25,861 nucleotides of DNA from a virus: positions 1 to 25,861 of IMG/VR virus record IMGVR_UViG_3300035212_002106. One strand, written 5' to 3'. Within the stretch, counting starts at the first letter, position 1. Every line of letters begins with the position of its first letter. Shown in pieces: positions 2,508 through 23,019 of this stretch. Below the pieces are notes generated by a model that ran no database searches, was not told the origin of the DNA, and saw only the letters and a program-made list of their open reading frames with translations. A program made the position numbers and the translations under genes.

Positions 2508-3137
2508 ATGATAATTTTAACAGGGATGGTTGGACTAGGTAAAACTAGTTTAACTGAATTAATTTCAAAAGAATTAAATTTAAAAGCTTTTTATGAAGAT
2601 ATTGATAATAATAAATATTTAAAAAATTATAATAGTAAAGATGTTTTTAATAATTATAATAGTCAACATTTTATTTTAGAAAATAGATTTAATAACATTT
2701 TAGAAGCTAGTAAATATGAAAATTCTATAGTTGATGGAAGTCTTGAAGAAATCTTATTATTTACTAATTTACAATTTGATATGAATAAAATTAATTTTCA
2801 CGATAAAGAAGCTTTATTAGTCGACTATAATATAAGAATTGAGCAACTTCAAGAAAAAATAAAAAGTAAAGAAATTTTAATTATTTATTTAAAAGCAAAT
2901 TTTAGTAAAGTTCGTGAAGGAATAAGAAAAAGAAATAGAATTTTTGAACAATCAAGAGAATTAGAAAGTTATTATTATGAAATTTGGGAAAATTATGATA
3001 AATTTGTAGAAAAAGAATTTAATAAAAAGAATTATGAAGTTTTAACTATTAATGTTGACAATAAAGATTTTATTAAAAACAGGAGAGATTTTACAAAAAT
3101 TTTAGATGATATAAATACTTTTATTAAAATCAAATAA
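2508..3137 (+). CDS. Deoxynucleoside kinase
   Basis: This enzyme family uses ATP to phosphorylate deoxynucleosides to 5'-monophosphates in the cytoplasm, feeding phage DNA synthesis by salvage. The 209-aa length is normal. Visible signatures are a P-loop GMVGLGKT (6-13), a Y-E-D motif at 29-31, the substrate-site Q-x-x-x-L-x-x-R pattern at 53-60, V-D-G-S at 75-78 in place of the usual D-R-S, and an Arg-rich lid, R-x-x-x-R-x-R-x-R (136-144). The Gly in D-G-S is a departure at a conserved Arg, so substrate specificity is unclear. The start has AAAGGAG upstream. A thymidylate kinase-like role is the alternative, but the motif order fits dNK better. Confidence 0.75.
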   Translation: MIILTGMVGLGKTSLTELISKELNLKAFYEDIDNNKYLKNYNSKDVFNNYNSQHFILENRFNNILEASKYENSIVDGSLEEILLFTNLQFDMNKINFHDKEALLVDYNIRIEQLQEKIKSKEILIIYLKANFSKVREGIRKRNRIFEQSRELESYYYEIWENYDKFVEKEFNKKNYEVLTINVDNKDFIKNRRDFTKILDDINTFIKIK

Positions 3138-3675: not shown

Positions 3676-3709
3676 TTCTAGCTTCGGCGTTTTTACTAGG
3701 TTTTGGAAT

Positions 3710-3740
3710 AAAAAAAGATTAGTAGAATTTTCTACTAACC
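3710..3740 (-). terminator. Intrinsic terminator, - strand, end of the accessory module
   Basis: TTAGTAGAA (3719-3727) and TTCTACTAA (3730-3738) form a perfect stem, followed on the - strand by TC and a run of T. It sits just after the stop of the last - strand gene (3748) and closes the 9535-3748 transcript. Together with 3634-3660 it insulates two converging operons. Confidence 0.8.
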
Positions 3741-3747
3741 TAAAACT

Positions 3748-3918
3748 TCAAATTCTAATATTCCAGTGGGAAAGTAAGGCGACAAGCCCTAAAACCCATA
3801 GAATTTTTTGAACAGTTTTCTTTTTAAAGCCCCAAATTTTCAAGCTATTAGTTGAAATGTAGGTCGCTAAAATTGTTGCAACCGTGCCTAAAATTGATAA
3901 AAATTGTTTAAAGTCCAT
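3748..3918 (-). CDS. Small membrane protein, 56 aa, last gene of the - strand
   Basis: The frame begins MDFKQFLSILGTVATILATY and has a first hydrophobic segment at about residues 6-22 and a second at about 39-51, with a K-K-K turn between: a two-TM hairpin. No normal ribosome binding site precedes the ATG; instead the pentanucleotide repeat TTAAG lies directly before it, and the upstream gene stops within that repeat. Translation probably depends on coupling to that gene. A holin-like or anchoring role is possible; no homology is claimed. Confidence 0.5.
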   Translation of the reverse strand: MDFKQFLSILGTVATILATYISTNSLKIWGFKKKTVQKILWVLGLVALLSHWNIRI

Positions 3919-3945
3919 TAACTTAACTTAACTTAACTTAACTTA
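3918..3945. repeat. Pentanucleotide tandem repeat (TTAAC, 5.6 copies)
   Basis: Five perfect TTAAC units (3918-3942) plus TTA run from the stop codon of the gene at 3933-4475 to the ATG of the 56-aa gene. On the - strand the unit is GTTAA and supplies both the stop and the base before the ATG. Copy-number change would alter the stop-to-start distance. Confidence 0.9.
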
Positions 3946-4475
3946 GTGATGACTAAATTTGCACTGACTGGATTACTACCACCTGCGAGAGCTGTGATAG
4001 TTAAAGGTGTTAGATTAAAAATAGAATTTTTAACGGATAAAATTGACCCTGGAATATCAACTTCTATTAAAGTTAATTCGGTTAATTGAGAACTACCTGT
4101 AGCACGACCCACTACGGTCGATGCTATTTCGACAGTATTTAAAGTTAAAACGAGTTGTGCCCCTTGGGTTAGGCTGACTTGAAAAAACACTTGGTAAACT
4201 CCAACATCATTTAAAGAAAAAGAGTTTGAGGTTAATCTTGTTATAGAACTACCACCAATTACCCCATCCTGTGGAAAGTCAACATTGCCCCCTACTGGAA
4301 TTGGAGCAGGGTTATCGTTTGGCATAAGTGCATAAAAATTAGCAAAACTATTAAGAACTGGAGGAATTGGAGGAATTGGAGCAGGTATTTGTGCTTGTGA
4401 TGGATAATAGAAAAAATCATTATCGAAGTCTTCTGAAAAATCATTTTTATAGTTTATATATATATCTTTTCCCAT
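3933..4475 (-). CDS. BclA C-terminal-like (TNF/C1q jelly roll) protein
   Basis: The product is 180 aa. Residues 1-40 form a variable acidic/aromatic and Pro-rich leader (P-A-P-I-P-P-I-P-P). From about 45 to 180 the pattern matches the trimerising C-terminal domain of the Bacillus exosporium protein BclA: a start N-F-Y-A-L, V-G-G-N-V-D-F, S-F-S-L-N-D-V-G-V-Y-Q-V-F-F, L-T-L-N-T-V, and an end in S-A-N-L-V-I-T-K-L. No signal peptide is present, so export would need lysis or assembly into the virion. It is the distal member of four such genes. The family assignment is from motif memory, not a search. GGAGG precedes the ATG. Confidence 0.65.
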   Translation of the reverse strand: MGKDIYINYKNDFSEDFDNDFFYYPSQAQIPAPIPPIPPVLNSFANFYALMPNDNPAPIPVGGNVDFPQDGVIGGSSITRLTSNSFSLNDVGVYQVFFQVSLTQGAQLVLTLNTVEIASTVVGRATGSSQLTELTLIEVDIPGSILSVKNSIFNLTPLTITALAGGSNPVSANLVITKLS

Positions 4476-4501
4476 TTTTTAACCTCCATTTTTAAAAATA
4501 A

Positions 4502-6040
4502 TTACAAAGTTGTTATATTTAAACTTGCTGAACCCTCACCAAATAGACCTACTGAACTTTCTATTGAAGCATTAAAAATCGTTATTTTATCTCCAGCAAT
4601 TGCTCGGAAATTTGTTTGTAAACTTGTTTCTCCAACTATTCCAGAAGGAATATATTTAACACCGTTCGAAACAGTTACAAGATTATTTTGTATTTGAATT
4701 GTTAAAGGTCCTGTGGAAATCGTTGTAAAAGAAAAATCTATAGAAATATCACAATCGTCTAAAACTGATATAAAAGTTGAACCAGCGACATATTCAAGTT
4801 GCGTAGCAGTGTTTGTGCTGTTAATTGTGTCAAAAGTAAAGAAGTCTAAAGGTAAAACTGTTAATCCAGCATCGCTATCATTTTGAGCGATATTGAATTG
4901 TCTATTAACTACAGTTTGAGCATTTTGTAGAGCAATAGTTTCATTTAAAAAATTAAATTGATTTGAAGTTGAAGAAACAGTTTCACTTACAAAAATTGAC
5001 TGTGCTATGAATTTAACACCAGAAGGTAGTGCACCTGAATTTGTATTAATAGAAATAGCTATTATTTTTTCAGCTCCATTTAGCGTACCCTTTGAACCAC
5101 CACCTCCAACAACGCTTGGACTTAATGCTACTGCATAATTAGTATGATTAGTAACAATTGGAGCTAATGTGTTTACTTTAGGAACTTGAGCAATAATATT
5201 AATATTAGCACCTAAAAAATTTCCTGCTAAATCTTTTGAAGTAACAACTTGTGTTGCAATTTGTGCTGAATATTGAACTGATGGGTCATATTGAAATCTT
5301 GATTGATACCAAGAACCACCTTTATTAGCAGGATTTTGTCCGCCTGAACCAATCTCGGTATATATATTTATATACGGCAAACTTACAACATTAAATATTT
5401 TTAGTGTTGCATAGAAATTGTCTAAATCATTCACAGTTAAAGGTGTGCCGTTTGGAGACATTGGAGTTGGCATATACCAATTGATGTGATTTCCTGCTAC
5501 AGTGTTTGTAAAATACCATCCATCATAGCCTTGTTGTGCAACTTGGTTTGGGACTGGAGTGTAAGGTTGAACAGCTACAGAATTTGGAACACTATCAGCA
5601 ATGACTGGTGCTTGAGGTTGTAAAACCGTTATATTTGAATAAGGAGAGATAGAAGTACTTAATTCCTTCACAAGTGTCAACTGAACTCCAGCATCTAATG
5701 AAATTTCACGGACTGGCATACTTGCATTATTTTTAATATTTACAATCGTTCCAATTCGAGTTATATCTAATATAACTTGAGTACTTGAATCGATAACAGT
5801 TGAGCTTGCAACGGAATAAATCGGACTAACTCCGTCGTTTAGCCAAACCGACATTCCTTGCTCTAAGTTAGTAACATTTAAAGTATAAATACCTACTTCA
5901 TTTATTATTATGTCCGACGATGGAGGGGTGAAAGATATATTGCCATTTATTTTTGCATAGTCAAAAATTAAATTAGAACCAGTGGGTGTTTTTGAAAAAA
6001 ATAAAGTAGATATAAAAGCTGAAGTTACTTTATAAGCCAT
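4502..6040 (-). CDS. Large multidomain beta protein with two BclA-like jelly rolls
   Basis: At 512 aa this is the largest protein of the module. Residues 1-130 look like one TNF/C1q-type jelly roll (I-I-I-N-E-V-G-I-Y-T-L-N-V). Residues about 140-375 are a distinct beta-rich domain with aromatic signatures G-W-Y-F-T-N, I-N-W-Y-M and G-G-S-W-Y-Q-S. Residues 380-512 form a second jelly roll that opens with F-N-I-A-Q-N, a motif shared with the 6078-6578 product. No signal peptide or TM segment is seen. It may be a fibre, decoration or carbohydrate-binding protein. A strong AGGAGGA precedes the ATG. The middle domain reminds me of proteins in large algal viruses, but I cannot verify that here. Confidence 0.6.
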   Translation of the reverse strand: MAYKVTSAFISTLFFSKTPTGSNLIFDYAKINGNISFTPPSSDIIINEVGIYTLNVTNLEQGMSVWLNDGVSPIYSVASSTVIDSSTQVILDITRIGTIVNIKNNASMPVREISLDAGVQLTLVKELSTSISPYSNITVLQPQAPVIADSVPNSVAVQPYTPVPNQVAQQGYDGWYFTNTVAGNHINWYMPTPMSPNGTPLTVNDLDNFYATLKIFNVVSLPYINIYTEIGSGGQNPANKGGSWYQSRFQYDPSVQYSAQIATQVVTSKDLAGNFLGANINIIAQVPKVNTLAPIVTNHTNYAVALSPSVVGGGGSKGTLNGAEKIIAISINTNSGALPSGVKFIAQSIFVSETVSSTSNQFNFLNETIALQNAQTVVNRQFNIAQNDSDAGLTVLPLDFFTFDTINSTNTATQLEYVAGSTFISVLDDCDISIDFSFTTISTGPLTIQIQNNLVTVSNGVKYIPSGIVGETSLQTNFRAIAGDKITIFNASIESSVGLFGEGSASLNITTL

Positions 6041-6077
6041 AATCTTATTCCTCCTAAAATTATATTAAAATTACTAT

Positions 6078-6578
6078 CTATATTAAAATACTAAAAATAC
6101 TTACACTAGCCGAATTTTTGCCTGTAAGTGCAATGTCACCATCGCTATTATTTTTAATTTGAATTTGCGAACCTGCACTACATAAAACATTGCATGATAA
6201 AGTAATTTGTGCATTGCTTGAGGTTAAAGAATTAATCTCATTATTTGCAAAATTTAATCCATTTTTTAAAATCGTAATTGTAAACCCAAACGATGTTATA
6301 GAATTTACACTAAAAATTATATTTAAAAACATATCTTTTTGTATAGTTATAAAATCATTACTAAAGATATAATTTATATTTTTTGTATTTGTTTCGCCTA
6401 AACTATCAAAAGTGAAAAAAGAATTATCAACTATTACTTTATTTGAATTTTGAGCTATATTGAATAAACCTATATTAGATTTATTAACATTATTATTAAT
6501 ATTATTTAAATAATTATAATTAAATTCTTTTTCTTCGTTTTCACAATAAGCATTTTGTATAATTATATTCCTTTTCAT
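6078..6578 (-). CDS. BclA-like single-domain protein
   Basis: The 166-aa product has a polar Asn-rich leader (1-35) followed by a jelly-roll-like domain that starts G-L-F-N-I-A-Q-N and ends in N-S-A-S-V-S-I-F-S-I-L. It aligns by eye with the last 130 residues of the 512-aa neighbour (F-F-T-F-D in both; I-Q-I-K-N-N here, I-Q-I-Q-N-N there), so the two are paralogues. It follows an intra-operon terminator, so it should be made in smaller amounts than the genes before it. The ribosome binding site is AAAGG. Confidence 0.6.
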   Translation of the reverse strand: MKRNIIIQNAYCENEEKEFNYNYLNNINNNVNKSNIGLFNIAQNSNKVIVDNSFFTFDSLGETNTKNINYIFSNDFITIQKDMFLNIIFSVNSITSFGFTITILKNGLNFANNEINSLTSSNAQITLSCNVLCSAGSQIQIKNNSDGDIALTGKNSASVSIFSILI

Positions 6579-6596
6579 ATTTTAACCTTTAATTAA

Positions 6597-6621
6597 ATAA
6601 AAGGACTTGATAGTCCTTTTA
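6597..6621 (-). terminator. Intra-operon hairpin/terminator
   Basis: AAAAGGACT (6599-6607) and AGTCCTTTT (6612-6620) form a perfect 9-bp stem with a 4-base loop. On the - strand the stem runs into TTTTATTT. It lies directly after the stop of the 6625-7173 gene and before the next start, with no promoter obvious in the short gap, so it probably lowers expression of the three downstream genes rather than ending the transcript entirely. Confidence 0.7.
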
Positions 6622-6624
6622 TTA

Positions 6625-7173
6625 TTAATTTGATTTTTGAATAGTTATTGTTGCATTAGGTGTTCCTAGTAGAAGTGCTGGTAATGTTATTGTAGAAGGA
6701 GTAAGATTTAAGATAGTAATTTGTTCTTCAGCTTGAAGTCTAGTAGTGTAATTAATATTAGCTGAAACCGAACCAATACCAGCAATTACTTTACTTGCTT
6801 CTTGAACTACTCCGTTTATAGCTACTGCAAAAGTTTGAATTCCTAAAGAAATTGGGAAATTAGCCGTAAATTCTATGCTATATATTCCAGTTAATCTAGG
6901 AACAAAAATACCTACCGTGTTAATATCACTACCAGCCATTGGCAATGTTTTAATTATAGATTTTATTCTGCCTCTGTTATTAAAAGTTTGATTTGGTTCA
7001 GTTTGGTTGCTAAACTTTACAAGTGCATTTTGTGCTATATCTTGTGCTGTAATATTAATAGCTTTATATAAATTGTCTATTATATGACAATCTTTTTTAT
7101 CATCAGCAAAATTAATAGCTATGTCTCCACTTCCACTAAAATTGTTGTTTGAAAATAATGCTGGACTAATCAT
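6625..7173 (-). CDS. BclA-like protein with INFADD motif
   Basis: The product is 182 aa. Residues 1-45 form a leader holding D-I-A-I-N-F-A-D-D (17-25), also found in the small protein encoded just upstream. Residues about 45-182 are jelly-roll-like: V-G-I-F-V-P-R-L-T-G-I-Y-S-I-E-F-T-A, then V-A-I-N-G-V-V-Q-E-A, then an end in N-A-T-I-T-I-Q-K. This pattern fits the BclA C-terminal family. AAAAGGAGG precedes the ATG and a hairpin follows the stop. A leader peptide shared by different proteins suggests a docking site on a common partner, which is an inference. Confidence 0.6.
   Translation of the reverse strand: MISPALFSNNNFSGSGDIAINFADDKKDCHIIDNLYKAINITAQDIAQNALVKFSNQTEPNQTFNNRGRIKSIIKTLPMAGSDINTVGIFVPRLTGIYSIEFTANFPISLGIQTFAVAINGVVQEASKVIAGIGSVSANINYTTRLQAEEQITILNLTPSTITLPALLLGTPNATITIQKSN
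7098..7122. repeat. 25-base direct repeat, copy 1 (encodes IAINFADD)
   Basis: These 25 bases are identical to 7256-7280, including synonymous positions. On the - strand they encode I-A-I-N-F-A-D-D near the N-terminus of the 6625-7173 protein. Confidence 0.9.
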
Positions 7174-7193
7174 TTTATACCTCCTTTTTTATT

Positions 7194-7412
7194 TTAAAAT
7201 ATTTCTTCGTCGTACATCATATCATCATATAAAATAGGCTCTGGCATTCTGCATCTATCATCAGCAAAATTAATAGCTATTTCGTTATTATTATTGCAAC
7301 AACCTAAACCATAAAAGCTTAAACCTAAACCAGCTAAAGCTAATCCATTTAAATTGTTTTTTCCACGAATAACTTGTAAATTTCGTCCGCTTTGTTGTAT
7401 AGTATTTCTCAT
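7194..7412 (-). CDS. Gly-rich mini-protein with INFADD motif and acidic tail
   Basis: The product is 72 aa in three parts. Residues 1-20 are basic, residues 21-39 are hydrophobic and glycine-rich (N-G-L-A-L-A-G-L-G-L-S-F-Y-G-L-G-C-C) and could insert in a membrane or pack as a Gly zipper, and the tail (40-72) contains E-I-A-I-N-F-A-D-D followed by Met and acidic residues. A strong GGGAGG site precedes the ATG. It lies between the acidic coiled-coil gene and the first BclA-like gene. Function unknown; an anchor or adaptor would fit. Confidence 0.55.
   Translation of the reverse strand: MRNTIQQSGRNLQVIRGKNNLNGLALAGLGLSFYGLGCCNNNNEIAINFADDRCRMPEPILYDDMMYDEEIF
7256..7280. repeat. 25-base direct repeat, copy 2 (encodes IAINFADD)
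   Basis: This copy is identical to 7098-7122 and encodes the same octapeptide in the 72-aa protein. Copies lie in the same orientation 158 bases apart, so recombination could delete the intervening gene junction. Confidence 0.9.
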
Positions 7413-7436
7413 AAAGACAACCTCCCTTTGATTAAA

Positions 7437-8018
7437 TTAGCTAACTTTAGCTTCTAATTCAAAAACTTTATTTTCTAAAGCATCAAATTTTTCTATTATC
7501 ATGTCCATTTTTTCATCTAAAGCCGTCTTAACTTCTGTTTCCATTTCTTCAGATTTTTCCATTTCTTCAGTTTCCACTTCTGAAGTTTCTTCTTCTTTAG
7601 AAGTTTCTTCTTCCATTTCTTTTTCTTCTTGAATTGGAATATCTACAAAAATGAAAGCTTCTTCTGGTAACTCTTCATCAGCTATTTCATCTGCTAAATT
7701 AACTGCTTGATAAGAAAATATTTTACTATCTTCATTACTTAAATCCATCTCTGTATCCATATTGTTAAAACCATCAGGAATTACATTAATAGTAGCTAAA
7801 GTGTCAATTATTCCATCAAATTTTTTGTTATCACACATACAAGACATTAAAATCAAGTTGTGAGTTTTCATTATTTCTTTTAATTTATCTACAAAAGTTG
7901 CATTTAAAATATTTTTTTCTTCGATTAAATCCTGTCCAAGTAGTAAATGTTTATCAACAAATACATAACCAATTGGTCTACTTGCATTAATTTTAGAATA
8001 ATCTTTCATACTTCCCAT
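7437..8018 (-). CDS. Acidic protein with C-terminal coiled coil
   Basis: I choose the ATG at 8018 because the in-frame GTG at 8027 lies inside its ribosome binding site AGGTGA; the product is 193 aa. Residues 1-90 look globular. Residues about 105-111 read A-V-N-L-A-D-E, close to the I-N-F-A-D-D motif of its two neighbours. Residues about 125-170 are a Glu-rich tract, and the last 25 form heptads (M-I-I-E-K-F-D-A-L-E-N-K-V-F-E-L-E) typical of an oligomerising coiled coil. No family recognised. Confidence 0.6.
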   Translation of the reverse strand: MGSMKDYSKINASRPIGYVFVDKHLLLGQDLIEEKNILNATFVDKLKEIMKTHNLILMSCMCDNKKFDGIIDTLATINVIPDGFNNMDTEMDLSNEDSKIFSYQAVNLADEIADEELPEEAFIFVDIPIQEEKEMEEETSKEEETSEVETEEMEKSEEMETEVKTALDEKMDMIIEKFDALENKVFELEAKVS

Positions 8019-8027
8019 ATTTTTCAC

Positions 8028-8330
8028 CTACTTCTTTTTTAAGGTTTCAATTTCAGACTTTAAATATGCTATTTCTTTATCTCTTTTTAAGTCTTTTTGA
8101 AATAACAAATTAATAATATCTGTTTTTTTATTATATTTACTTAAAACTTTTATTAATATTTTTTCATTTTCAATATTAGAAAAATATTTATTTAAAAATG
8201 ACATTATAGAATTAACTAATTCTTCTTCATTATCAGGGTTATCAAAATAATCACTAAAAATTTTTAATAATTCCGCTTTTTCTTTAGGATTTTTTAAAAC
8301 ACTTTCAATAAAACCAGTCGCTAAACTCAT
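8028..8330 (-). CDS. Small helical protein with coiled-coil C-terminus
   Basis: The 100-aa product begins MSLATGFIESVLKNPKEKAE, is mainly helical, and finishes in a short coiled coil (I-A-Y-L-K-S-E-I-E-T-L-K-K-K). GGAGA precedes the ATG and overlaps the end of the upstream gene, while its own stop abuts the ribosome binding site of the 7437-8018 gene, so the three coiled-coil genes are tightly coupled. No signal peptide, TM segment or known domain. Confidence 0.55.
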   Translation of the reverse strand: MSLATGFIESVLKNPKEKAELLKIFSDYFDNPDNEEELVNSIMSFLNKYFSNIENEKILIKVLSKYNKKTDIINLLFQKDLKRDKEIAYLKSEIETLKKK

Positions 8331-8333
8331 TTT

Positions 8334-9089
8334 TTATCTCCTCTTTTTCTTATTAGATTTTTTATTTTTTTCTAATAAGTTTAAAGGTGGAGAGTTTATA
8401 TTTGTTTCAGCATCTAAAATTATATTGTTTTTTGTAGTTTCTTCTGAATTTATAATATTCTCATCAACTAAAGAATTTTCAACTAATGCAGGTTCTTCCA
8501 TCACTTGCAAATTATCAGGAATATCTATCATTTCAATTTCTAAATTTTCTGGAATATCTATTTTTTCATTAGCTACTTCATTAATTAAATTTGAATTGTT
8601 TTCAATAGATTGAACTTGAATATTATTTTTTTCTACAAAATCCATAAGCAAGTTAAATCGTTCGTTAGATTGATTTAACTTTTCCTCTAAAACATTTATT
8701 TTATTTTCTAAAATCGGATTATATCCATTTTCTTCATTATTAAATAATTCCTCTAATTCTTCAGCTAATTCTTTGTGTGCATTATCTAAAATTCTTTTTT
8801 TCTCTGATAGATGTGGATATTTATTTAAATATCTTTCAAATGCTTTAAGTTTTCTTTTTTGCAAAACTTCCTCTTCTGATACTTGAGGGGTATTGTTTTG
8901 TTGTAAAAGTTGTTGGGGAATTTGATTATTTAAATAATTATTATTTTGATTATTTTGATTATTTTTTTGTATCATACTATTAATAAACATAGGTGCTGCT
9001 TCTTTAACAGTTGAAATAATTGTTGGAACTAATTCGTTAATCGCTTGTTTTGTTATTTCAGATTTTGCTAAAGCACTAAAAACATCCAT
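8334..9089 (-). CDS. Coiled-coil protein with Asn/Gln-rich linker
   Basis: The 251-aa product has an amphipathic helical N-terminus (1-42: alternating hydrophobic and charged, as in membrane-surface helices), an Asn/Gln-rich linker (43-70), helical and coiled-coil segments (78-160), an acidic region containing I-D-I-P-[ED]-N-L twice, and a basic tail K-K-S-N-K-K-K-R-R. An AAGGAAAGG site precedes the ATG. It follows the strong terminator at 9135-9165. A scaffold or linker role is an inference from architecture. Confidence 0.55.
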   Translation of the reverse strand: MDVFSALAKSEITKQAINELVPTIISTVKEAAPMFINSMIQKNNQNNQNNNYLNNQIPQQLLQQNNTPQVSEEEVLQKRKLKAFERYLNKYPHLSEKKRILDNAHKELAEELEELFNNEENGYNPILENKINVLEEKLNQSNERFNLLMDFVEKNNIQVQSIENNSNLINEVANEKIDIPENLEIEMIDIPDNLQVMEEPALVENSLVDENIINSEETTKNNIILDAETNINSPPLNLLEKNKKSNKKKRR

Positions 9090-9134
9090 CTTGCCTTTCC
9101 TTTCTTATATATATTAAGACTTAATAATAATATA

Positions 9135-9165
9135 TTAAAAAAGGTTAGGCAAAATAGCCTAGCCC
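9135..9165 (-). terminator. Strong intrinsic terminator after the 115-aa gene
   Basis: GGTTAGGC (9143-9150) pairs with GCCTAGCC (9157-9164) with one G-U wobble, and on the - strand it runs into six T. It is among the most GC-rich stems in the window. It separates the 9188-9535 gene from the rest of the module, so the 115-aa protein would be overproduced relative to downstream genes. Confidence 0.8.
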
Positions 9166-9187
9166 TTGTTTAAATTAATATTAAGTT

Positions 9188-9535
9188 TTAACCTAAAATT
9201 TGATTATTTCCTCGTGAAGGCATTCCATTAACTGCAATTCCTCCACCTTGATTAGCTAATAATATTGTTAAAACATCATTTTTGCTTTGATTAGCTATAT
9301 TTAAATTAGTTGCTGCGTTTCTTTCAGCGTTGTTTTTATCTCCAACAGTGAAAACCCATCCAAGAATTCCTATAACTGCTGCTCCACCTAATAAATATAA
9401 TCCTGTTTTTCCTGCTGCTGCAGTTGAAGTATGGTCGCTCATTGCAAATGCTGCTGCAAGGTCGCCTTTATCTCCACCTGATTTTAATTCTACTGTACGG
9501 ATGTCTCCGCCTGACGCATATTCACCATAACGCAT
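9188..9535 (-). CDS. Small one-TM protein, probably abundant
   Basis: The 115-aa product is unusual in this gene set: rich in Gly/Ala and low in Lys/Asn. Residues 1-43 are polar with two S-G-G-D repeats; residues about 45-64 (G-L-Y-L-L-G-G-A-A-V-I-G-I-L-G-W-V-F-T-V) form one TM helix; residues 65-115 are polar and end in a Gly-rich tail. There is no cleavable signal. TTGGAGGAAA precedes the ATG, and a strong terminator follows the stop. The size, composition and single TM are reminiscent of virion membrane or coat peptides, but no homologue is recognised. It heads the accessory module. Confidence 0.6.
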   Translation of the reverse strand: MRYGEYASGGDIRTVELKSGGDKGDLAAAFAMSDHTSTAAAGKTGLYLLGGAAVIGILGWVFTVGDKNNAERNAATNLNIANQSKNDVLTILLANQGGGIAVNGMPSRGNNQILG

Positions 9536-9626: not shown

Positions 9627-9654
9627 TAAGTTGTTCAGAACTAAATTAAAAAAC

Positions 9655-9738
9655 AAAAAAAGACTTTTTAAAAGTAATTTTATATATATAAGATATTCTC
9701 TTAATATATATATTATAAACTCTTAAGAAGTCTTTTTT
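9655..9738. terminator. Long inverted repeat, bidirectional terminator
   Basis: AAAAAAGACT (9656-9665) pairs with AGTCTTTTTT (9729-9738). The stem continues inward with one wobble and one mismatch, then an A+T-rich arm closes around 9690-9700. On the - strand it ends in a T run after AAAAAGTC, and ends the long late operon; on the + strand it also ends in six T. With the + promoter at 9598-9626 it could be nearly the whole of a small RNA. Confidence 0.75.
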
Positions 9739-9771
9739 GTCCGTTCATAGTTCGTTTATAGTCCGTTTATT
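9739..9771. repeat. Three 11-bp tandem repeats beside the terminator
   Basis: Units GTCCGTTCATA (9739-9749), GTTCGTTTATA (9750-9760) and GTCCGTTTATT (9761-9771) are direct copies with few changes. They span the last codons and stop of the 9745-10485 gene and touch the hairpin. Chance repetition in coding sequence is less likely because the array crosses the stop codon. Confidence 0.7.
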
Positions 9772-16946: not shown

Positions 16947-19132
16947 TAGTAAGTCCTCGCTGCCATAATATTATCAAATTGCCTTGCACTTTCTCGTTGC
17001 ATTTGTCTTGTATCTAAATTGTTTGTGTAAAAATTTTGAATAATATTAACTGGTTGTTGTTGCCTTTGTTGTATCATGTCGTTATTTCTGCTATTAAACC
17101 TACTTAGGCTTGAAGTATCTAAAATTGAACGCCCTACCGTGTTAAGTTGTATTTCGCTTTTACTCTTGCCACCACTAAACCATCCAGTGACTGTATCGGC
17201 TATTCCTGATACTTTTTTCTTAAGTGAGTTCCATGTATCTAATATCCCATCAACCCAACCCTGTATAAGGTTTTTACCCCATTCTTTCACATCATCTACT
17301 AAATCTAAAAACCACTTACTTATAGCATTCCATAACACTTTAAAGGCTAATTTGAGAGTATCCCATGCTAAGCTAACAATATTACCGACTTGTTTCCAAA
17401 AAGCATTCCATAATTCAACTAGTCCCTCTTGCATTAATTTCCAATCTGAATTAAATAAGCCTTTAAATATCTTAAATATTGCTTTTATACCGTCGATAAA
17501 ATTATTAAAGCTTTTCTCCATAAATTCCCAAATTCTACTCCAAATTGCTTTTATTTCTTCGCCATGTTCTGCCCAAAATTTTTGGAATTCCTCTTTAAAT
17601 TTATTAAAAGTTTTAATAAGAAAATCAAATGCAATAATAAAAGCTTGTTTTATGTCCTCCCATATCTGGGTTGTTTTCTCAATTATAGCCTCGCCGTTCT
17701 CTGCCCACCACAACTTAAAATCATCAAGCCATTTTTTTATTAAGTCTGAAATTACCTTTATAGTATCTTGATATATTTTTTTTATCTTTAGCCATGTTGC
17801 GTCGACATTTTCCCTAAATTCATCGTTGCTTTTATATAGACTAGCAAAAATTGCTATCAATCCAGCTATCGCTGCGACTACTAAAGTAACTGGTAATAGT
17901 GTGCCATTCATTGCTACATTTAAAGCTTTTATTGAGGTCATAGCACCACCTATACCTGACGATATTTGCCCTATAATTAAAAGCAACGGTGCAAGTCCAG
18001 CCACTACTGCAAGGACTATAAATATAAGTTGTTTTTGCTCTGCTGTTAATCCTTGAAACCAATTTATCACTTTTGCAAGTACCTCGTTTAATTTCTCCAT
18101 CATTGGTAAGAGTAACTGGTTAATCTCCGTACCAACGGCACCAAATAAACCTTTTGAGTTTCTTTTAACCTTATCAAATTGGTCGTTAAGCTCAACATTC
18201 TTTTTTAGCACATCTTCGGACATAATAAGCCCTAAATCTGCCATTTCTTGCCCATAAGCTTCTAAATCTGCCGTTCCATTTTGTAATATAGAACCTAAAT
18301 CTGTATATGTTTTGCCTAGTAGTTCCTGTGCAAGTCCCGCTTTTTCCGTTTCATTTTCTACTTTTGATAGGGCGTTTATAACATCATACATAACCTTTTC
18401 AGAATTTCTATAGCTTCCATCTGCATTTTTTACTTCTACCCCTAGTTTTGCATAGGCAAGTCCTGTACCTTTTGTGCTATCGGTTGCTTTATTCATATTC
18501 TGTCTTGTTTTAAGTAAACTTTTAGATAAACTCTCAACACTAACATCTACAAAATCAGACGCTGAACCCCATCTTTGGAGAGTATCAACTGAAATACTAG
18601 TTTGGTCTGATAAAGTTATTAAATCGTCTGCACTTTGTGCTGCTGCAACCCCTGCTGCAACTATCCCACCAACTGCTCCTGCTGCGATTGCACTAATTGG
18701 AGTTAAAGCTTTTCCTACTTTTGTTGCTCCATCTCCAACCTTATTAAATCCAGCCGTTGCTTTATCCCATCCACTCGTTTTGGTAAGTTGACTGTTTAAC
18801 CCTTTTAATTTATTTTCTGTTGCTACAATTTCAGTTTGTAATTTTCTAAACTGTGCCTCGGTTATTTCCCCTTTTTTAAAAGCCTCTAGGTTTTGCTCTT
18901 CGGCTGTTTTTAATAACTTTAGTTTCTTTTCAGTTTCTGCTACGGCTTCAGTTAGAATTTTCTGTTTATTAGCTAGTAATTGTGGGTTTGCACCGTCAAA
19001 TTTAAGTAATCTTTCTGTTTCTTTAAGTTCTTTTTGTAGGTCTCGCCCTGAACTTTCTATTGTCTTTAAGCTTTGTTGTAAGCCTGTTGTTTTGCCATCT
19101 ATTTCAATGGTTAATCCTTTAATATTTGCTAT
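16946..19132 (-). CDS. Tape measure protein, apparent ATA start
   Basis: The tape measure sets tail length and is threaded in the tail tube. The frame is open from ATA 19132 to TAA 16946, giving 728 aa. Residues 1-20 read (M)-A-N-I-K-G-L-T-I-E-I-D-G-K-T-T-G-L-Q, the standard beginning of this family. A coiled region (22-130) follows, then an Ala/Gly-rich hydrophobic segment near 165-195, two hydrophobic helices near 365-435 and Trp-rich repeats (W-x-x-I-x-x-x-F). The first ATG is at 18496, which would cut off 212 conserved-looking residues. AGGTAGGTGG lies 6 bases before ATA. No lytic domain is seen. Confidence 0.85.
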   Translation of the reverse strand: MANIKGLTIEIDGKTTGLQQSLKTIESSGRDLQKELKETERLLKFDGANPQLLANKQKILTEAVAETEKKLKLLKTAEEQNLEAFKKGEITEAQFRKLQTEIVATENKLKGLNSQLTKTSGWDKATAGFNKVGDGATKVGKALTPISAIAAGAVGGIVAAGVAAAQSADDLITLSDQTSISVDTLQRWGSASDFVDVSVESLSKSLLKTRQNMNKATDSTKGTGLAYAKLGVEVKNADGSYRNSEKVMYDVINALSKVENETEKAGLAQELLGKTYTDLGSILQNGTADLEAYGQEMADLGLIMSEDVLKKNVELNDQFDKVKRNSKGLFGAVGTEINQLLLPMMEKLNEVLAKVINWFQGLTAEQKQLIFIVLAVVAGLAPLLLIIGQISSGIGGAMTSIKALNVAMNGTLLPVTLVVAAIAGLIAIFASLYKSNDEFRENVDATWLKIKKIYQDTIKVISDLIKKWLDDFKLWWAENGEAIIEKTTQIWEDIKQAFIIAFDFLIKTFNKFKEEFQKFWAEHGEEIKAIWSRIWEFMEKSFNNFIDGIKAIFKIFKGLFNSDWKLMQEGLVELWNAFWKQVGNIVSLAWDTLKLAFKVLWNAISKWFLDLVDDVKEWGKNLIQGWVDGILDTWNSLKKKVSGIADTVTGWFSGGKSKSEIQLNTVGRSILDTSSLSRFNSRNNDMIQQRQQQPVNIIQNFYTNNLDTRQMQRESARQFDNIMAARTY

Positions 19133-19148
19133 GTCTTACCACCTACCT
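19132..19148 (-). promoter_or_regulatory. Ribosome binding site that decides the ATA start
   Basis: AGGTAGGTGG (19139-19148) is followed by 6 bases and ATA (19130-19132). The only codon between the in-frame TAA (19136-19138) and ATA is GAC, and no ATG, GTG or TTG occurs in frame until 18496. Confidence 0.75.
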
Positions 19149-21483: not shown

Positions 21484-23001
21484 TTAATACCTATTTTGAT
21501 TAATTAAGTTTAATAGCATTCCTTGAAAAGAATTATTATAATTTTCCGATATATTATTTTTTATAATAATTGATACCGCTTGTACACTTGAATTATTTTC
21601 GATATTATCTCGTTTCCATCCAGCGTTTAGTAATATTTCCTTTGCATTTTCTATATGTTGGTTTATCTCCATATCTTTAATAGGGTCATCATAAAAAACC
21701 CCTAACATAATTTTAACTTTGTTTAAAAAATAACATTCAATATCACTTGTACATTCTGGTTCTGGTTCTGGTTCTGGTTCTGGCTCTGGTTCTGGTTCTG
21801 GTATTTGTTCTGGTTCTGGTATTTGTTCTGGTTCTGGTTCTGGTATTTGTTCTGGTATTTGTTCTGGTTCTGGTATTTGTTCTGGTTCTGGTATTTGTTC
21901 TGGTTCTGGTATTTGTTCTGGTTCTGGTATTTGTTCTGGTTCTGGTATTGGTTCTAGTTCTGGTATTGGTTCTGTTTCAGGTTCTGTTATTTCTTCAACT
22001 TCAGGTTCTGTTATTTCTTCTACTAAATTAATTGATTGTCTTAAATTAGAAATAGGTATAAAATTAATGCCGTGTGGATTATCAGCTCCATATTCTGAAT
22101 TATCTTCTCCAATAATTTCACCGTTTACTAAAACACTTTCTAAAGCTTTATTATTTTCTAATTTTGTTTTTGAAAAATAATCTTTAGATATTCTATACGC
22201 CGTTTCAGGTTCTACAGTTGCATTTATTATATTAGTTAATACTATACAATTTTTAACCGTACCTGTTGTTTTTTGTGTTCCAGCAACCCCTCCAGCGTAT
22301 CGATTAGATATTATGCTTTCGCCTCTTACTTCACAATTACTAATCATAGGACTAGAAGTACCTAAAATTCCTACTAATCCTCCAGCACCACCACTCCCTA
22401 CTGAATTTATAGTTGAGGTTATAGCGTTTATATCTGATATACTATTATTTAATATACTTTTATTTGATAAATTACCTAAAATTCCTCCAACACTTTCCGT
22501 CCCTGTTATTTTGTTACCTTGTACATAAATATTATTTAAATTTACGCCATCTTGTGCATCAGCAATTAACCCTCCAACTCTTGCAGTTCCTTTAAGGTTA
22601 ATTTTTTCAGCGTTAATATTTACAAAATCTATATTTTTTGTAGCTAATCCAACAAGCGACGCTGTATAAGAATCACCTAAAATTAAAATATTGTTTAAAT
22701 TTAAATCTTTTATTACTATTTTTTTATCTAAATTACCAGTGATTTTACTAAAAATAGCTACATAATTTATTTTAGTATTAATTATTTTTATATTACTTAA
22801 AATCTTATTATTTCCGTCAAAATTACTTTTAAATTCTGTTATTGGTAAATCAGGATTATCTTCTTCAAAATCAATATCATTTTCTAATTTAAAATATAAA
22901 TTAGGTTCACTATATTCAATATCATTTAATAAATAAAAATCTTCTTTGTTTTCAATTAAATATGGTTCTAATTCTATTCCTAAACCTTTTAATTCTTTCA
23001 T
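21484..23001 (-). CDS. Head-tail connector fused to a GLUG-type beta-helix
   Basis: ATG 23001 is chosen because GTG 23010 lies inside its ribosome binding site AAAGGTGA; the product has 505 aa. Residues about 20-325 are a beta-helix with the typical opening [11 protein letters not shown] and repeats V-G-G-L-I-A (142-147), V-G-G-I-L-G (171-176), A-G-G-L-V-G (206-211) and A-G-G-V-A-G (236-241), as in GLUG-repeat surface proteins. Residues 328-415 are a P-E-P-E-Q-I repeat linker. Residues 416-505 are a gp6-like connector ([22 protein letters not shown], ending L-L-N-L-I-N-Q). Usual connectors have about 100 aa; the extra domains would decorate the neck. Confidence 0.8.
21750..22030. repeat. Imperfect tandem repeat encoding P-E-P-E-Q-I linker
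   Basis: Multiple copies of an 18-base unit containing GGTTCTGGTATTTGTTCT, with shorter 6-base GGTTCT runs, encode the Pro/Glu linker of the connector. Unit number is likely to vary among relatives. It is coding, in frame, and not a CRISPR array. Confidence 0.9.
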
Positions 23002-23019
23002 TTTTATCACCTTTTAAAT

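Follow-up and report, generated by a model that had tools for sequence, protein, structure and literature searches.

Locus and transcription signals

The window analysed here, IMG/VR record IMGVR_UViG_3300035212_002106, is a linear viral contig of 25,861 bases and 26.9% GC. Between positions 3748 and 9535 it carries a module of ten minus-strand ORFs, most of them with good Shine-Dalgarno sequences (Table 1). The initial annotation described this module as a separate minus-strand transcript past the late-operon terminator and after the lysis genes. Strand, coordinates and the upstream hairpin were all recovered, but instead of a single transcript the module probably comprises three transcription units (TM115; cc251-p100-cc196-gly72-JR182; and JR166-JR512-BclA180-g56), because the terminators at 9136-9172 and 6588-6628 split it. 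Its placement after lysis genes was supported in part: a C39-like protein (E = 0.056) and a 61-aa TM protein without a family are encoded upstream, and these do not establish a lysis gene. Several further multi-TM proteins are encoded just upstream of the module. GC3 of the module is as low as in the remaining phage genes, and codon use therefore shows no sign of recent foreign insertion.

Two smaller sequence features were noted within the module. A perfect 5-nt array, (TTAAC)5.6 at 3918-3945, spans the BclA180 stop codon and ends at the start codon of g56, and a change in its copy number could alter the spacing before g56. The string TCTTAATATA, present upstream of both TM115 and cc251, was weighed as a candidate promoter element and set aside, having been picked post hoc and being ill-placed for cc251.

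Table 1. Genes, domains, motifs and terminators of the module and its borders, in order of minus-strand transcription
Feature	Position	Strand	Basis
Hairpin with T-run (terminator closing the upstream late genes)	9648-9745	-	Fold -28 kcal/mol, z -6.6; inverted repeat
TM115, single-TM protein, first gene of the module	9188-9535	-	Hydropathy 2.04 over residues 46-64
Intrinsic terminator 3' of TM115	9136-9172	-	
cc251, 251 aa, predicted coiled coil and basic C-terminus	8334-9089	-	Heptad score
p100, small, charged, helical-looking	8028-8330	-	Heptad signal not significant
cc196, acidic, predicted C-terminal coiled coil, DIPIQ at residue 129	7437-8027	-	Heptad score; motif
gly72, headless, 72 aa, carries EIAINFADD	7194-7412	-	ORF; shared motif
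Motif DNA within gly72	7256-7283	-	27/28 nt identical to JR182 copy
JR182, DIAINFADD N-terminal tail and predicted BclA/C1q-type head	6625-7173	-	HMM, identity, predicted model
Hook-like motif DNA within JR182	7098-7125	-	Direct repeat with gly72
Terminator 3' of JR182	6588-6628	-	z -5.5
JR166, NIIIQNAY tail and predicted BclA/C1q-type head	6078-6578	-	HMM; paralogy to JR512 C-terminal domain
JR512, predicted BclA-type head, Pro-rich linker, middle domain, second predicted BclA-type head	4502-6040	-	
JR512 middle domain (GWYY...NKINWY)	4970-5584	-	Homology to Synechococcus phage S-CRES protein
BclA180, DIYINYKND tail, Pro-rich stretch, predicted head	3933-4475	-	PF18573; Bacillales matches
g56, short hydrophobic ORF behind (AAGTT)n array	3748-3918	-	ORF
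Terminator at the module end	3708-3746	-	z -5.0

Phage and host

The contig belongs to a tailed phage of spore-forming-type bacteria (Bacillota). Its minus strand carries the genes for the head, connector and tail of a siphophage of Bacillota, including a protease, MCP, connectors, a major tail protein, a tape measure, Dit, a minor tail protein and a conserved protein of the baseplate or receptor-binding type. The MCP is 37-43% identical to the MCPs of a Butyrivibrio phage, a Terrisporobacter phage and prophages, and its top genome matches are from Bacillales (Paludifilum, Metabacillus, Paraliobacillus and Bacillus). Clostridium, the first idea for the host, was weakened by these matches and by the closest relatives of BclA180, which are also from Bacillales. 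A code 4 host was rejected: the genetic code of the contig is standard, with TGA serving as the stop codon in three genes and table 4 bringing no gain. Butyrivibrio phage Arawn, Terrisporobacter phage TPDSL_ph2 and Bacillales prophages have a structural gene order similar to that of the phage here, but neither the module nor a BclA-like ORF is present in any of their loci that were read.

Several features outside the module were also recorded. The left 3.5 kb of the contig holds plus-strand genes, among them a deoxynucleoside kinase gene (2508-3137; PF01712, E = 5e-17) on the strand opposite to the structural genes and a 223-aa ORF containing an AAT microsatellite of 22 copies (2275-2341; poly-Asn). 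On the minus strand, an acidic 508-aa protein (21484-23010) lies between the MCP and connector genes. Its C-terminus matches the phage connector PF24829 (E = 2.5e-4), about 420 aa precede this match, a GLUG-like motif among them, and an 18-nt repeat in 12.7 copies (21754-21982) encodes a Pro/Glu-rich linker; the protein is predicted to be a connector with a large N-terminal extension. Upstream of the ORF start as listed, the tape-measure frame stays open for another ~215 codons (18496-19145, minus strand), and ATG, GTG and TTG are absent near the likely true start.

Four proteins with BclA-type heads

To score the jelly-roll candidates we used a BclA-like HMM built from proteins of Clostridium-order genomes and iterated to 59 sequences. 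It gave 59.3 bits for BclA180, 24.2 for JR182, 20.6 for JR166 and 20.3 for the N-terminal domain of JR512, compared to at most 13.6 bits for shuffled copies and at most 16.8 bits for anything outside the family among 20,466 ORFs. BclA180 alone has a direct library match (PF18573, E = 5e-9, 36.5 bits, just below the 38-bit cut-off), and it also matches PHROG 30509, 'collagen like minor tail' (4.5e-10). The head of JR182 is 34% identical to the collagen-like C-terminus of a clostridial protein. Its single-sequence AlphaFold (AF2) model, though a low-confidence one (pLDDT 49), finds most of its matches in the C1q/TNF superfamily, with hits to BclA (1wck, Z 7.2) and BxpB/ExsFA, and also resembles viral collagen/C1q and tail-fibre proteins; the model of JR512 failed (pLDDT 37). 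JR512 appears to carry two BclA/C1q-type domains, on either side of an unrelated middle domain, and the C-terminal one is a paralog of JR166 (31% identity, E = 2.6e-16). The five head domains of the module are strongly divergent from each other.

These comparisons point to BclA/C1q-TNF-type jelly-roll domains in BclA180, JR512, JR166 and JR182, in agreement with the initial annotation. The jelly-roll proteins had also been described as being without signal peptides, and hydropathy (rather than a dedicated predictor) likewise places no hydrophobic segment at their N-termini.

The middle domain of JR512 has a different affinity. It is homologous to a protein of Synechococcus phage S-CRES1-3 (E = 2e-5, about 24-32% identity; gp92/gp102 in S-CRES1/3), and relatives occur in 10 further viral contigs. 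In S-CRES1/3 the domain lies within proteins of 973-1924 aa that are encoded beside the major capsid gene and are probably structural, whereas in JR512 it is located between two BclA-type heads. The GWYY...NKINWY domain, found in Synechococcus phages and other viral contigs (L003 7968-8492; L064-L073), has no Pfam model and is best described as a putative unnamed viral structural domain.

A tail motif shared with gly72

BclA180, JR182, JR166 and the headless gly72 share a short tail motif (Table 1). In its strict form the motif has four cases in the module and none among the other proteins of the window; the pattern was written after the sequences were seen, and the shuffle figure of 0/20,000 is therefore no fair probability. 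The identity of 27 of 28 nucleotides between the motif DNA of gly72 and JR182 points to a recent duplication between the two genes. In short chromosomal BclA-like relatives, Cys-rich tails stand where the phage proteins bear the motif. As for gly72 itself, a mini-protein of this size exists as annotated, but it is only moderately Gly-rich and is better called Asn/Gly-rich.

The motif bears on whether the module is a unit at all. The jelly-roll genes might be ordinary adhesin cargo, that is, unlinked C1q/TNF-type proteins gained singly and without joint assembly, as could be argued from the many phages and giant viruses in which C1q/TNF-like folds were matched, from the great divergence of the five head domains and from the three separate transcription units. 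We regard this as improbable: that four such proteins are clustered, that four products have a motif in common and that gly72 and JR182 share a recent 28-nt duplication all speak for a common context.

Coiled-coil, membrane and orphan proteins

Of the three coiled-coil proteins proposed in the initial annotation, two stood up when heptad scores were compared with 300 shuffles: the score of cc251 was reached by one shuffle and that of cc196 by none, but that of p100 was reached by 41. The single TM protein is TM115, which has one TM segment by hydropathy and no family match in Pfam, PHROGs or NCBIfam.

Relatives of the module were sought at several levels. Scans of viral contigs with JR512, JR182, TM115, cc196 and an alignment of BclA-like heads, which reach only close relatives, found none. 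Among 50,697 phage records there was no relative of JR182, and JR512 was matched by its middle domain only. Whole-genome searches with the joined module proteins, in which few candidates were scored per genome, returned matches to BclA-type heads only, and no BclA-like ORF was present in the loci that were fetched from viruses and prophages for their related structural genes. The sole near-identical contig, IMGVR_UViG_3300034105_003061, stops at window position ~10,660, short of the module. The remaining module proteins are thus orphans within a limited search and not proven unique, and the earlier remark that no described phage system has this gene order holds across the phage records and the fetched loci.

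Relation to spore-surface proteins

BclA-type heads are the outermost adhesive parts of spores. Over 137 aa, the head of BclA180 (aa 43-180) shares 51-58% identity (E = 1e-39 to 1e-34) with the C-terminal parts of plasmid-borne collagen-like proteins from Priestia megaterium, Sporosarcina, Pseudalkalibacillus and Peribacillus; in 11 of 328 Bacillales-order genomes there are proteins to which it is 50-58% identical. In these Bacillales relatives the head is mostly preceded by Cys-rich N-termini and GXY repeats. Because relatives are found in Bacillales genomes and plasmids and none in the 50,697 phage records, the simplest reading of the sequence matches suggests that the head was transferred from Bacillales to the phage. 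With one head more than half identical to Bacillus-group spore-type heads, the data further suggest that a spore-surface adhesin was taken over by the phage to serve its own purposes. Two of the genomes (L194, L197) have an Enas gene (PF13157, endospore appendages) within 1.5 kb of the BclA180 relative, a layout resembling the bclA-ena3A arrangement of the L-ENA tip protein L-BclA (PMC12921279).

We compared the module with the BclA, L-BclA and F-BclA heads of the Bacillales exosporium nap and endospore-appendage tips (PF18573; PDB 1WCK, 9H38). The BclA180 head is alike, and the module heads similarly have short N-terminal tails and no signal peptide. Unlike these systems, the module lies in a phage late region and has several divergent heads per cluster, and parts of the spore architecture are missing from it. 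The collagen GXY stalk of the Bacillales relatives is absent from every module protein, as is the Cys-rich connector, BclA180 having no Cys where its relatives are Cys-rich. An NCBIfam search of the module tails gave no match to the exosporium leader (TIGR03720), and none of the ten module proteins has a Pfam match to Enas (PF13157) or to the F-ENA subunit DUF4183.

The promoters differ as well. Exact sigma-K-like promoters lie upstream of 10 of 56 clostridial BclA-like genes compared to 1 of 280 shuffles (23/56 versus 39/280 when one mismatch is allowed), and several Bacillales relatives are preceded by a sigma-K-like promoter with 0-1 mismatch. Upstream of the module genes the best site has two to three mismatches, the same as in shuffles. 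Sigma-K control of the module is therefore unsupported, and the missing promoter argues moderately against expression in sporulation.

A rival reading is lysogenic conversion, in which a temperate phage would put its own heads on the host spore (exosporium or endospore appendages) during sporulation. Such a role would fit the closest relatives of BclA180, which are Bacillales collagen-like proteins, two of them near Enas genes; it would also fit the lack of signal peptides, a property of exosporium proteins, the known plasmid-borne exosporium genes (PMC4674009), and the clostridial chromosomes in which short BclA-like proteins adjoin small Cys-rich helical proteins. We nonetheless consider conversion unlikely. 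Sigma-K-like promoters are enriched before the chromosomal relatives but no better than chance in the module, the stalk, connector and leader match of the relatives are missing, JR512 contains a cyanophage domain, and no lysogeny genes (integrase, repressor) were seen on the contig, an incomplete fragment.

A candidate late-made appendage

Our preferred reading, to which we give close to an even chance, is that the module specifies an adhesive appendage with several heads, made late and either carried on particles or released with them. A virion or lysis-released surface structure had been proposed in the initial annotation and is something that we, too, infer; such a structure fits the strand and late position of the module, the cytosolic character of its products, the phage-type domain within JR512 and the lack of sigma-K promoters. 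Of these, the late location and strand, together with the cyanophage domain, argue for a role borne by particles or lysate. Counting against an appendage on the particle, the module has no known tail- or head-attachment domain (Pfam and PHROGs found no tail-attachment N-terminus of the tail-fibre or receptor-binding type), it lies beyond a terminator and about 4 kb from the tail genes, and a TM protein would be odd in a tailed virion.

In the proposed appendage, each head would trimerise, as BclA heads do, and the short tails may dock hook-like onto a common acceptor, by analogy with exosporium and F-ENA leader or hook peptides. In Bacillus, the leader peptides of BclA and F-Anchor dock into clefts of the ExsF trimer, and F-ENA trimers are linked via N-terminal hooks into fibres that assemble in the cytoplasm of E. 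coli (PMC11952670). The likeness to the F-ENA system (F-ENA, F-Anchor and F-BclA) is one of idea, comprising all-beta trimers, short N-terminal hook or leader peptides and cytoplasmic assembly; the module differs in having no DUF4183 subunit or collagen-like anchor and in its hook sequence, and docking within it would be an analogy. The coiled-coil proteins could form a stalk or scaffold, gly72 a cap or adaptor, and TM115 a membrane-side anchor or assembly site. Assembly would take place in the cytosol without secretion, because lysis would free the product, much as mother-cell lysis does for spores, and its likely use would be attachment to surfaces, cells or spores. It is also conceivable, if doubtful, that the phage rebuilt a spore-appendage system by mounting stalkless heads on hook peptides and adding a phage-type domain, coiled-coil scaffolds and a membrane anchor, giving a virion or lysate appendage that shares the binding partners of the host spore.

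The membrane protein leads to another account, in which a membrane-anchored or cytosolic assembly, freed at lysis and not part of the virion, would serve in surface remodelling, superinfection exclusion or as a sticky lysate matrix. TM115 comes first and has its own terminator, as would befit a membrane component made in quantity; there are also coiled-coil partners, and several more multi-TM proteins are encoded just upstream. The probability of this account is low in our view: the heads have no signal or sorting sequence that would take them out of the cell before lysis, and no related exclusion system appeared in Pfam, PHROGs or NCBIfam searches.

With a near relative of spore heads, three more such proteins and a shared docking-like motif all in a phage late region, the module connects phages with the evolution of the spore surface and is a concrete example of a stalkless BclA system that can be put to the test. 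Should the heads be on particles, as in the appendage that we prefer, the phage may use host-spore ligands, perhaps in order to locate spores or be carried by them; should they instead go to spores, this would be spore-surface conversion by a phage.

Finally, a repeated cluster was observed in Clostridium-order chromosomes, in which a BclA-like protein of ~165-180 aa with a Cys-rich tail is accompanied by two to three Cys-rich, helical-looking proteins of ~100-145 aa (L153 4182-6031, L155 5042-6634, L156 6170-7870, L158 5875-7582, L159 6057-7708 and L165 5625-7141). The one cluster searched against NCBIfam gave no match, and the arrangement is possibly an undescribed spore-surface operon.
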